A stretch of 36,923 nt of DNA. It comes from a virus. This document shows, in pieces, positions 12,946-30,559 of the stretch; the first letter of the stretch is position 1, and each line of letters begins with the position of its first letter. The position numbers and the translations under genes are program-made. The stretch covers positions 1-36,923 of IMG/VR virus record IMGVR_UViG_3300034066_000689. One strand, 5' to 3'. The notes under the pieces are model-generated. The model was not told the origin of the DNA, did not search any database, and saw only the letters and a program-made list of their open reading frames with translations.

Positions 12946-13970
12946 GGTAACGCCGTAACGTATTTAATGTTTTTACGGCAATCGAAACAATGGTTATCGT
13001 CGGGTAATCGCATATTTTGAAGCATTGCCGTTAACTCATTATTGTATTGGTCGGCTGCAATATCGCGAGCGGTTGTTATACCGCCTAAATCCTTTGCGCC
13101 TTTGTTAACGATTACGCTTGTGTTCGCCCGTTGGTTAGGGCTAACCGTCAACGCGTAGTTATATATTTCCACAGCCGTAGCGTATGCCAAAGCTAAACTC
13201 ATTTGATTACCGATTGAACACAACCAGCCGCGGCGGTCGCAGCTTACCGAGTAATTCAAACTCATTCCCGTCGTGTACTTATTATTTGAGCTACTTAACA
13301 CGCTTACGCCGTCCGTTGTTAGGTTAATGCCTATTGCATCGACGAACGGGCAAATATGCGCCTCACGAACCGCGCCGCCGCAATCGTAGCAACTACCCTT
13401 TTTTGGAATGAATTTAACCGTGTTCATAGTCGATTCGTAAACAAAAGCCAAATCCAACTTGCGGCGCTTTGCTGCGAACTCCTTACCGATATAATATTCG
13501 ATGCCGCCCGCCGTATACGTTATTGTATCAATTAGCTGAAGCGTAGTCATATCGAAAACCAATATAGGAACGTTGGTATTACTCGAATCAATTGCTATCG
13601 TTAAATCGCTTATAAATAGGTTTAGATAGCTTAACGTGTTCGGGCTTATCTTTACACGAATGCCGCCGTAATTACCAGCGCCTAACGCCGTTTGAATGTT
13701 AGCGTAATCGGTAACAACTTGACCGACCCTTTTCGATTCGATAATAGTGTCGGCTTTCATCATTGGACTAAGCCGCGTTAAAACGTCGCTGCTAAGTTTT
13801 TTCCAAGCGAAGGCGCGTTTATCTTCGAATAACTCAACGCCGTTGTTATATTGGTCCGTTATTAGCTGACCTAAAAAGGTGTTATTTATACCGAGTTCGT
13901 CGATATATAAGCCCGTCGTAGGTTCTGCGACGTTGCAATCGCGTAAGCCCAAAAGTGATTCGTAGCACAT
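12942..13970 (-). CDS. Structural protein of the neck/head region, 342 aa, Cys-rich
   Basis: Directly follows the capsid gene terminator. Contains three Cys clusters: CYESLLGLRDC at the start, CYDCGGAVREAHICPF in the middle (about 195-210) and CFDCRK near the end. These could bind zinc or form disulphides. Otherwise mixed alpha/beta with no family recognised; proteins of this shape occur next to the capsid gene in other Bacteroidota phages. Likely a virion part, possibly connector or tail-related. Confidence 0.5.
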   Translation of the reverse strand: MCYESLLGLRDCNVAEPTTGLYIDELGINNTFLGQLITDQYNNGVELFEDKRAFAWKKLSSDVLTRLSPMMKADTIIESKRVGQVVTDYANIQTALGAGNYGGIRVKISPNTLSYLNLFISDLTIAIDSSNTNVPILVFDMTTLQLIDTITYTAGGIEYYIGKEFAAKRRKLDLAFVYESTMNTVKFIPKKGSCYDCGGAVREAHICPFVDAIGINLTTDGVSVLSSSNNKYTTGMSLNYSVSCDRRGWLCSIGNQMSLALAYATAVEIYNYALTVSPNQRANTSVIVNKGAKDLGGITTARDIAADQYNNELTAMLQNMRLPDDNHCFDCRKNIKYVTALP

Positions 13971-13981
13971 AGGACAAAGAT

Positions 13982-14010
13982 AAAAAAAAAGAGGGGTAAT
14001 AAACCCCTCT
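13982..14010 (-). terminator. Intrinsic terminator after the capsid gene
   Basis: Minus-strand stem AGAGGGG/CCCCTCT with 7-base loop (TTTATTA), followed by a run of nine T (13982-13990). Strong. The stop codon of the -1 frame extension of the capsid gene (TGA, 14010-14012) touches the stem. Partial read-through would set lower expression of the genes below. Confidence 0.88.
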
Positions 14011-14095
14011 CATTCAGTTACAAGATTATCAAAACCATTTTGCGTCAATAGGTCTTCATCGGCTTGCGATAATAAACCTATCGACGCTGCTACGG
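14010..14095 (-). CDS. -1 frame extension of the capsid protein (27 residues), no start codon of its own
   Basis: In the -1 frame after the slippery site the reading is open for 27 codons and ends with TGA at 14010-14012. The peptide is acidic (SQADEDLLTQNG in its middle) and contains no ATG or GTG start in the right place, so it can be made only as an extension of the capsid protein (375 residues in total). It fills almost the whole space between the capsid stop and the terminator. Confidence 0.7.
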
Positions 14096-14099
14096 GTTT
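14042..14099 (-). promoter_or_regulatory. Programmed -1 ribosomal frameshift signal at the end of the capsid gene
   Basis: Slippery heptamer A AAC CCG (14099-14093) in the correct phase, one codon before the TAG stop (14090-14092). After a 5-nt spacer comes a 12-bp stem (14076-14087 with 14042-14053, one G-U pair) with a 22-nt loop that can form an extra ATCG/CGAT stem. Site, spacer and stem all match the standard design of -1 frameshift signals. Confidence 0.75.
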
Positions 14100-15136
14100 A
14101 CAATCTCGATGCAGTTTACGTAATTTACGCCTGCGTATTTGTCGCCTGCTTCGTAAATATCGTCAGGTAATGTAACGAGTTTACCAGTATGCGTCAATAC
14201 GATTGACAAATTACCGCAATCGTCCTTCATGGTTAAATCAACTGGCAAGCCCGCAGGGGTAAAAGCAATAGTCTTAGAATAATTGCTACCCGCTACTGGT
14301 GTAATACCCGCGTTCCATTCTGCCATGTTAAACGATAACCATTGCATCGCGCCTGCGGTCGTTGCTAAGTTTTTAAGCTGTGAACCTTGAGCGGCTGCCA
14401 AACGTGCATCGTAAGCGAATCCGAAACCGTTTTGCTGCGAAATCGCCAACAAATCGATACCGAACTGAGTGCAGCAACCAGCTTGCACAGCATTAGCATA
14501 ACGCTGCATTTCAGCACCACCAAATACCACAGGCGCGCCCGGATAGTTAGCCATGCGTGTTGCTTGTAGGATGTCTGCCAAAGCAAACTCATTCAATGCT
14601 TGCCCGCCTGTTTGGCGTGTAGCAACGCGTAAACAATCACCGCTAACGGTGTAGTAACCGCTAACTTCAGTACCCCACTTGCCGATAGCGGCAACGGCTT
14701 GCGTAGCTGCGGCGCTTGCTACTTTTCTGTCCATTACGTCCATTAAACGCATGATGCTTTCCAATACGTAACGGCTGTTTTCTTGACAATGACGGGCGAT
14801 TGCATCAGCCTCAATCAATTGGTCAGCAATATACGTGTCGGTCGTTTCAAGCGTGTACGTAGTTGTGCTATCGCCGTAGGTGTTGGTAGCCGTACAAGTT
14901 AAGATGTTGCCACCTTCTTCTACTTCTGTTTCGGGTAGGCGCTGAATCCAACGTGCCTCAACGGTTTTTAGCTTACCGCGTCCCGGTGCAACCTCTTGAC
15001 GAATTAATTTTACGTTTTCAGGTGAGTTAAGAAATTCGAGGAAAGGTAGCTGTTCGCGCTGCCCAACTTCGATAAAAAGCTCCGAAAGGCTCATTTGCAC
15101 ATTCGGGCATTCGGATAAAATGCGAGAAATTGACAT
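14090..15136 (-). CDS. Major capsid protein
   Basis: 348 residues. Position after scaffold, size, and composition fit an HK97-fold capsid protein: an N-terminal arm, a long helix (about 110-150, ADAIARHCQENSRYVLESIM), a mid region of Ala-rich peripheral-domain type, and a strand-rich C-terminus (SIVLTHTGKLVTLPDDIYEAG). It has its own long leader with promoter and attenuator, and is followed by a strong terminator, as expected for the most abundant virion protein. It contains an unusual number of Cys (including CC). A -1 frameshift signal at its end predicts a minor extended form, like gp10B of T7. Confidence 0.8.
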   Translation of the reverse strand: MSISRILSECPNVQMSLSELFIEVGQREQLPFLEFLNSPENVKLIRQEVAPGRGKLKTVEARWIQRLPETEVEEGGNILTCTATNTYGDSTTTYTLETTDTYIADQLIEADAIARHCQENSRYVLESIMRLMDVMDRKVASAAATQAVAAIGKWGTEVSGYYTVSGDCLRVATRQTGGQALNEFALADILQATRMANYPGAPVVFGGAEMQRYANAVQAGCCTQFGIDLLAISQQNGFGFAYDARLAAAQGSQLKNLATTAGAMQWLSFNMAEWNAGITPVAGSNYSKTIAFTPAGLPVDLTMKDDCGNLSIVLTHTGKLVTLPDDIYEAGDKYAGVNYVNCIEIVNP

Positions 15137-23799: not shown

Positions 23800-25434
23800 T
23801 TATTCTTGATATAAATTTATGTTATCTTGAGTAAGTAGTCTATCGCTATCCTGTGCAAGTATAAACGGCTCAGTATCTATATCGAGTATAGAAGGTAGGC
23901 AATTCGCATCGACGCCAACACAAACAGTCTTACGCACCTTATCGCGCTTATTATATAAGTCGATTGTTAAAGCGCCTAAATCGTCGGCGTTATCGTATTC
24001 AATGGTTGGAAACTCGTTATCGGCTGGGAAAACCGTGTCGCCGTTTATATAGCAGTTATCGAAATAGAAAACAATCGAAAGAAAATCGAAAACGTATTCG
24101 GGCAAGCGCCCAAAATAATAACTCAATTTCTTTTTGCGGTCTACGTATGAAGCCTGCCAACGTCCCGAAGCATATCTAAATAAATCCGTATCGGTATCGT
24201 ATTGCGCCTGAAAGCGTCGCCCCTCTAAACGAATGCCGGGTAAAAACGATGTACCGTTAAAGCCTAAACCAAATTGATTTTCGCCGTTGCACCCTTCAAT
24301 CTTAAAGAATCTGCAATCGTCTGAATAATCCCCTATGCTGATTAGGTCGCTATACATATCGTACTTAGCTGAGTTCTTATCTATACGCACGGTTATACGC
24401 TTAACTGTTATTTCGCCATTGAGCGAAGCACCAAACTGAGAGCCTAATAAACTTACTTGTCCGCTTTGAGTTACTGTGATTGTAAAGTTGTAAGTGCCTG
24501 ACGTGCTTATTGCGCTGCCATAGTTAATGCCGTCAACTTGCAAACGAAGCCTTGCATTGCTTATTGATTCGACTTCAATCTCTACATAATAAGTACTGTT
24601 TTCGCATAGCTCTGTAATGGATACAAGCTCTGTTTGGTTGCCTATTGCAGTCAAATCGATTTGAGCCTCACCATTGCCAACGTTCCAATCGTCCGAGCCC
24701 ACAACGGGTGTAGATGTCCAGCCTACCGGAATGCGTGGCACGCTATTGAAATACGGATTGTAAATGAAATACTGACCGCACGTATTGGTACAATAGTCCG
24801 CAATCGCTAACCGATAGCAGCCTGCCTCGATTTCGTAATCAGCTAAGTTGATTCCACTGGTTAGGTATTGGTTATTAACAGTGCCAACTAAGTCGAGCCT
24901 TTTAACTACTGCTAATGTAGTTGCATCCACAATGCCAGCGAATAATGCGCCGTTTGGAACAGGCACAACGCTGTCAACTGAGAATGAACCATCGAACGGC
25001 TGTGCGCCGTTTGTAAAGTTAATTCCTATAATCCCAGTAGTTAAATCGAATGTGGTTAGGTAAATGCTATGTGTGCCCGGTGTTGTTATGGTTTCCGTAG
25101 TTCCTGAAACAATTGAAACATTCAGCTCCCCAACAATATCGTAAACGGTTACAGTAAGCAAAAAATATTGCACCACATCAAACCGAGCATAAAAAGCTAC
25201 ATAACTTCCCGTACTTGTTCCATTCGCAGTTATTGTCGAACCGCTTTGAGTCCAGTCATCAATAACCGTTTCAAAAGTCCTATCGGCAAATTCACATTGA
25301 CCAGCTTCGAGCTGCCAAAATAGTTGGTCATTGAAATCCACCAACTGCGAATACTCCGAGCCACAGCCCTCGCAGCCTTCAGGCAAAACAGAATTGAAGA
25401 TTATCGGTTGGTTAGGTATCGAGGTATAACTCAT
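23800..25434 (-). CDS. Tail protein with carbohydrate-binding-like beta domains, 544 aa
   Basis: Strand-rich. Cys-rich start (EGCEGCGSEYSQL). Two similar Ser/Thr/Gly-rich sandwich regions, about 60-150 and 240-350, resemble carbohydrate-binding modules (the second includes NGEITVKRITVRID). The C-terminal part (about 360-500) is a different mixed domain with KLSYYFGRLPEYVFDF. Coupled by ATGA to the 657-residue tail protein. Likely part of the tail tip or baseplate with host-surface binding. Confidence 0.55.
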   Translation of the reverse strand: MSYTSIPNQPIIFNSVLPEGCEGCGSEYSQLVDFNDQLFWQLEAGQCEFADRTFETVIDDWTQSGSTITANGTSTGSYVAFYARFDVVQYFLLTVTVYDIVGELNVSIVSGTTETITTPGTHSIYLTTFDLTTGIIGINFTNGAQPFDGSFSVDSVVPVPNGALFAGIVDATTLAVVKRLDLVGTVNNQYLTSGINLADYEIEAGCYRLAIADYCTNTCGQYFIYNPYFNSVPRIPVGWTSTPVVGSDDWNVGNGEAQIDLTAIGNQTELVSITELCENSTYYVEIEVESISNARLRLQVDGINYGSAISTSGTYNFTITVTQSGQVSLLGSQFGASLNGEITVKRITVRIDKNSAKYDMYSDLISIGDYSDDCRFFKIEGCNGENQFGLGFNGTSFLPGIRLEGRRFQAQYDTDTDLFRYASGRWQASYVDRKKKLSYYFGRLPEYVFDFLSIVFYFDNCYINGDTVFPADNEFPTIEYDNADDLGALTIDLYNKRDKVRKTVCVGVDANCLPSILDIDTEPFILAQDSDRLLTQDNINLYQE

Positions 25435-30080: not shown

Positions 30081-30559
30081 TCGTGCGACCCCTCCTCTGC
30101 CATCGCTTCAAATAGTTTTAGTTTCGACTGGTGTATATCGGGGTTAATAACCGCAGGGTTTTCGTCCGAGCGTATTACCCACGTTGCGGCAATGTTCAAC
30201 AATAGGTCGCGGTGTATAACCGTGTTTTGCCTTTCACGAATTACGTGTATGTAGGTAGCAACTAAAGCGGCGTTGCGTGGGTTCGTTAAACCAGCGCCTA
30301 AAGCCTTTTCCATTTCGGTTAGTATTGCTTCCATTTCAGAACCCGATAAACCGCTACTTAATCGCTCAAGCAAGCTCATGCTCATTGCAAAGCGTTCGAG
30401 CGGTAACGATGTTTCTTTTGGAAATCGGTAATAACTAAATCCGTCCTTTGTGAATAGTTGTACTAAGTTGTATTTAGGTAGTTCGGGGTTTGCCTTATTG
30501 CGCGAAAATATGGAGCGCAGTCGCCCGCCTAATTTGCTGAATGATGTGGTCAATGTCAT
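29897..30559 (-). CDS. Tail assembly chaperone, G-like
   Basis: 220 residues, mostly helical (FAMSMSLLERLSSGLSGSEM, PEELTTLWDYNRVQIQKLHE), with an early short domain (NLVQLFTKDGFSYYRFP). Located immediately before the tape measure and overlapped in -1 frame by a second reading frame of 112 bases from its ATG, the classic design of tail chaperones that hold the tape measure during assembly. A U UUU UUU site in phase lies at codons 160-161. Family not named from sequence. Confidence 0.55.
   Translation of the reverse strand: MTLTTSFSKLGGRLRSIFSRNKANPELPKYNLVQLFTKDGFSYYRFPKETSLPLERFAMSMSLLERLSSGLSGSEMEAILTEMEKALGAGLTNPRNAALVATYIHVIRERQNTVIHRDLLLNIAATWVIRSDENPAVINPDIHQSKLKLFEAMAEEGSHDFFTGLDIEPLKPLLRMSPEELTTLWDYNRVQIQKLHETLAALSSHRDEGQSKRKISSANK
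30074..30080 (-). promoter_or_regulatory. Candidate -1 slippery site (T TTT TTT) in the tail chaperone gene
   Basis: Seven T on the minus strand, phased as GAT TTT TTT ACA in the G-like frame, so tRNAs can re-pair after a -1 shift. A weak stem GGTTT/AAACC with a 16-nt loop follows after 3 nt. The -1 frame is open from just upstream to 29787. Confidence 0.45.

Follow-up and report, generated by a model that had tools for sequence, protein, structure and literature searches.

We found that the presumed major capsid gene of a family of uncultivated phages very probably uses a programmed -1 ribosomal frameshift, which would yield a minor 375-residue form of the protein beside the 348-residue major form. 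The hallmarks of such a shift are present, i.e., an X_XXY_YYZ heptamer in phase with the upstream frame, a downstream RNA structure kept by covariation, and a -1 frame under protein-coding selection. It is the joint changes of heptamer and extension among relatives, the restriction of coding to the -1 frame and the paired changes in the stem that lead us to programmed -1 frameshifting. The stretch of DNA analysed (the window) is a viral contig of 36,923 nucleotides, positions 1-36,923 of IMG/VR record IMGVR_UViG_3300034066_000689, with its genes mostly on the minus strand.

The shifted gene is presumed to encode the major capsid protein (MCP) from its place in the gene order (portal, head protein, scaffold-like protein, presumed MCP, ~340-aa protein, ~170-aa protein), which is paralleled in Bacteroides phage C1_85S2P. 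Searches of PHROGs, Pfam and PDB profiles, and a profile comparison with three named phages, gave no sequence similarity to known MCPs, and the two AlphaFold models obtained (mean pLDDT 31.5 and 38.5) were too poor for use. Thus, where an earlier sequence-only reading of this DNA spoke of the major capsid gene, gene order sides with it, yet similarity to known MCPs does not.

Table 1. Positions in the window of the elements at the 3' end of the presumed capsid gene, and of the related tag in the tail region.
Feature	Position	Strand	Details
Presumed major capsid protein (MCP) gene	14090..15136	-	348 codons, stop TAG 14092-14090; identity by gene order
Slippery heptamer A_AAC_CCG	14093..14099	-	in phase; XXY and YYZ are the final two sense codons
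Stimulatory stem-loop (predicted)	14042..14087	-	22-nt loop; begins 5 nt past the heptamer
-1 frame extension VAASIGLLSQADEDLLTQNGFDNLVTE	14010..14093	-	codons 14093-14013, stop TGA 14012-14010
Intrinsic terminator	13989..14011	-	stem overlaps the extension's TGA stop
C-terminal tag FILAQDSDRLLTQDNINLYQE of the 544-aa tail-region protein	23803..23865	-	same repeat type as the capsid extension

The capsid frame ends in GTA AAC CCG TAG. The spacer TAGCA (14092-14088, minus strand) separates the heptamer from a stem whose arms, GCGTCGATAGGT (14087-14076) and ACCTATTGACGC (14053-14042), form 12 base pairs including one G-U. The 27 codons of the extension hold no ATG or GTG and a single TTG, and encode five acidic and no basic residues. 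The sequence-only reading had pointed out the heptamer in phase by the TAG, the 5-nt spacer, the stem with its G-U pair and 22-nt loop, and 27 open -1 codons lacking their own start and ending at the terminator stem; all are there as it described them, and we agree with its predicted 375-residue product bearing an acidic 27-residue tail.

To see how unusual this arrangement is, we gave helices one point per base pair, less half a point for each G-U. Counting both strands, there are 560 X_XXY_YYZ heptamers in the window, and only the capsid site is followed, 3-9 nt downstream, by a helix scoring at least 11; ten shuffled windows held 0-3 such heptamer-helix sites each (mean 0.5), counted without regard to phase at a gene stop. 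The folding energy of the region is -53.9 kcal/mol versus -24.0 +/- 3.2 in shuffles (z = -9.2), a value that includes the terminator hairpin. An Rfam search with the hairpin gave sub-threshold matches only.

The proposed mechanism is as follows. The stem would pause the ribosome with Asn-tRNA on AAC and Pro-tRNA on CCG, and the two tRNAs would slip back together by one base, re-pairing on AAA and CCC. The slipped ribosome would pass the TAG out of frame and add 27 residues, such that a minority of capsid proteins would reach 375 residues, with the predicted junction ...EIVNPVAASIGLL.... One point counts against this: to our knowledge, heptamers with C-rich Y positions are not among the classic strong ones of E. 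coli.

In order to compare relatives, we scanned IMG/VR with capsid proteins of the family and a tail protein, which gave 132 distinct relatives (window included) with MCP identities to the window down to 69%; searches of 50,697 phage records and 84,980 cellular genomes yielded none. The -1 extension is present in 105 of the 132, running 26-29 residues past the shift; the other 27 lack it, and their capsid frame stops at or close to the same residue. An in-phase heptamer occurs in 102 of the 105 phages with the extension versus 3 of the 27 without (the three being L019, L062 and L101). Loss of the heptamer in relatives, which the sequence-only reading had named as a sign against frameshifting, does occur, and the extension is missing as well in these cases for the most part: of the 27 relatives without the extension, 24 lack the heptamer too. 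The comparison it had proposed found heptamer, stem pairing and open -1 frame kept, with mostly silent changes in the 3' arm of the stem. An earlier tally (91 of 94 versus 3 of 27; Fisher 6e-19) overstates the case because related contigs are not independent, making contrasts on a tree the fairer measure. The tree, built from the capsid gene with its 3' end left out, has 12 changes of state for the extension. In 7-8 of ~10 independent contrasts the heptamer shifts along with the extension, in 2-3 it stays as it was, and in none does it shift the opposite way (sign test, median p 0.016). Some phages can do without the long form, as the losses show. As a separate observation, the capsid frame stops at TAA or TAG in all 132 relatives and never at TGA.

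The site itself appears to be selected. All 102 phages with heptamer and extension use CCG or CCA for its proline and none uses CCT, although CCT makes up 48% of MCP proline codons. Extension-less phages have GTT AAC CCT, GTA AAT CCT, GTT AAT CCA and similar, and the changes by which the heptamer is lost mostly leave the capsid protein sequence unaltered. In L117 the site reads GTT AAT CCT, a natural example of such a silent loss. We read this proline bias and the silent heptamer loss as selection on the heptamer itself. Eleven further relatives with 69-76% MCP identity all have A_AAC_CC[GA], a stop and an extension of 26-28 residues, and three of these eleven (L268, L269 and L271) have an extension of a different type (e.g., SPDFLISKEFQDGFAFQFQSGEDFDFQ) and their own stem sequence with the heptamer unchanged.

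The stem is likewise conserved as a structure. Scoring the 12 stem pairs in each of 50 distinct relatives, we found 95% of the cells paired, versus 85% in shuffles and 28-47% at slid positions, and 7 of the 12 pairs show two-sided changes (G-C/C-G, T-A/C-G and C-G/T-A exchanges). Phages of a second class, with extensions shorter by one codon, have a stem of their own with 98% pairing. The 3' arm codons, which encode a conserved D-L-L-T-Q, differ synonymously in 83% of cases; the linker codons in the 5' arm do so in 11%, and the linker's amino acids vary, following the 3' arm. With one arm silent and the other changing amino acids, the RNA structure seems to dictate the residues of the linker.

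Substitutions in the extension follow a protein-coding pattern in the -1 frame and in no other. Across 51 distinct gap-free extensions, the -1 frame has no stop in any, while both other frames have stops in all 51. The fraction of synonymous codon differences is 0.48 in the -1 frame versus 0.21 and 0.07 in the others, and versus 0.195 +/- 0.052 for shuffled columns. The peptide is a short repeat (hydrophobic-hydrophobic-x-Q/E-x-G/D-x-D/N), and in the window it is about half as long as the extension of the T7 capsid protein. A search with it in named phages gave no match, and none of the 132 relatives has it fused in frame to the capsid gene.

We weighed several ways in which such an extension could arise without frameshifting. 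Since the stop codon adjoins the element and a TTG lies within the extension, stop codon readthrough or internal restart might translate it; yet reading on in frame past the stop adds 0-6 residues in nearly all relatives, the extension being in the -1 frame, and no start is conserved (ATG and GTG are both absent from the first 15 codons in 85 of 105). Moreover, neither process explains the conserved AAACCC or its joint loss with the extension, and we regard both as extremely unlikely. That the hairpin is an RNA element, acting in termination or mRNA stability with the open -1 frame as a by-product, would suit its strong fold and its place directly before the terminator. Codon evolution in the -1 frame nonetheless persists downstream of the stem (synonymous fraction 0.62), the frame is free of stops in all 51 distinct relatives, the heptamer is kept at silent sites and no Rfam family reaches threshold, all of which make this explanation very unlikely. 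Lastly, the two frames differ by a single base, as they would if an assembly or sequencing error had split one long gene. We see next to no chance of this, as the arrangement recurs in more than 100 distinct contigs, mostly from separate metagenomes, the stop is kept as TAA or TAG, and extension-less phages end the gene at the same residue.

A further alternative accepts the frameshift and differs in its mechanics: Pro-tRNA alone would slip on C_CCG beside the stop, with no tandem slip. A few phages lend it some support. L119, L122 and L128 keep the extension with the site GTT AA[CT] GTC CCG TAA, at which only the proline codon can re-pair, and L078 has a duplicated GCC CCG at the usual 5-nt distance from the stem. 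On the other side, A_AA is kept in 102 of 105, and in ten relatives sense codons separate heptamer and stop, the stop lying one codon later in nine and two codons later in one. With stops so placed, a two-tRNA slip fits better than slippage at a stop-occupied A site, and we consider slippage of Pro-tRNA alone unlikely. In the exceptional phages the site may be in decay, or slippage there may need only the proline codon. L119, L122 and L128 also form a natural test of which tRNA must re-pair.

Returning to the tandem -1 shift and its product, we noticed a similar repeat elsewhere in the window, at the C-terminus of a 544-aa tail-region protein (23800-25434, minus strand) that has no family match. 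A tail-region protein of ~550 residues ends in a repeat of this type in the genomes examined, with the capsid extension present or absent, and inspection of the window and three related genomes in full found no other frame of at least 120 residues with such an ending. In the L268/L271 clade, the capsid extension and the tail protein end (IFQDTNPFIFQDGEYFGFN) have both switched from an LLxQ type to an F-x-F-Q type. Local alignment scores of the tags fall into two blocks: 44-46 among tags of the F type and 24-56 among most tags of the L type, two pairs of which score 17-18, versus 13-24 across types. The tail protein's tag is read in frame, the frameshift being limited to the capsid gene.

What the minor form is for is less certain, and the resemblance suggests that the extension may act on the capsid as a low-copy tag for docking or binding, with the same job as the tail protein's tag. 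Tentatively, and with the odds rather against it, we suggest that the frameshift puts the tail protein's docking tag on a few capsid subunits, with head and tail binding one shared partner (which could be a fibre, a decoration protein or a host surface feature) and the tags co-evolving. We keep this idea provisional because one type switch is known, the tags are short, and sequence exchange between capsid and tail genes is a rival cause of their likeness.

Capsid extensions made by frameshifting are known from T7, T3 and Listeria phages (PMC5009743). As in T7 gene 10 (10A/10B), where a -1 shift near the end of the capsid gene gives a minor form with a C-terminal tail, the predicted shift here would lengthen a minority of subunits; the T7 heptamer, however, has G_GU at the X_XX position (PMC5009743), in contrast to A_AAC_CCG and a simple 12-bp stem at 5 nt in the window. 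We found no homology to T7 gene 10, the capsid protein having no match in 50,697 phage records or PHROGs. In T3 and Lactobacillus phage A2, too, a virion protein gains a surface-type module through a -1 frameshift (PMC5009743). Their extensions are Ig-like, unlike that of T7 (PMC5009743) and unlike the repeat of this family, which we rejected as an Ig-like domain because 26-29 residues are too short for one. Listeria phages PSA, A118 and A500 (cps, tsh) resemble the window in having a proline codon at the shift site beside a stop or RNA structure, and in extending both capsid and tail proteins, as both are tagged in the window's family; their capsid shift is +1 in PSA and -1 in A118 and A500 (PMC5009743). 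The window differs from them in that its tail protein is tagged in frame and the shift is in the capsid gene only. In the literature searched, no paper turned up that describes a capsid frameshift in this phage group or a slippery AAACCC in the capsid gene of a phage.

An unrelated and uncultivated family would thereby join the few phages with capsid genes known for frameshifting. Going by the comparisons above, what is new relative to known cases is the unusual C-rich heptamer, the linker tied to the stem, the many natural losses and the tag common to the tail protein. The more than 100 natural variants show which bases matter and form a comparative data set for the unusual A_AAC_CC[GA] site. 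Likewise, the roughly twelve state changes of the extension on the tree offer a handle on the purpose of the minor capsid form, and the common tag is a concrete lead to its function.

As to hosts, the portal protein shares 21-23% identity with portals of Bacteroides, Croceibacter and Flavobacterium phages, which makes Bacteroidota hosts likely; this uncultivated family thus probably infects Bacteroidota. The Bacteroidota promoter -7 element is TAnnTTTG. A similar sequence, TATCTTTG (13975-13982, minus strand), is placed right between the terminator of the capsid gene and the following gene, whose ATG is at 13970, with the same or close variants in relatives; as a promoter it would yield an almost leaderless mRNA. 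Two open frames of 96 and 220 aa immediately precede the tape measure gene and overlap, in different frames, by 65 nt (30495-30559, minus strand). The G/GT frameshift of tail chaperones is usually found here; the overlap showed no classic heptamer, and the second frame comes with an ATG of its own. Finally, the two ends of the contig (3-1238 and 36617-36922, minus strand) code for one and the same segment of a replicative helicase-like protein, reading RPSYYAL versus RPAYYAL, a near-repeat that perhaps reflects a circular genome whose assembly drew on more than one variant.
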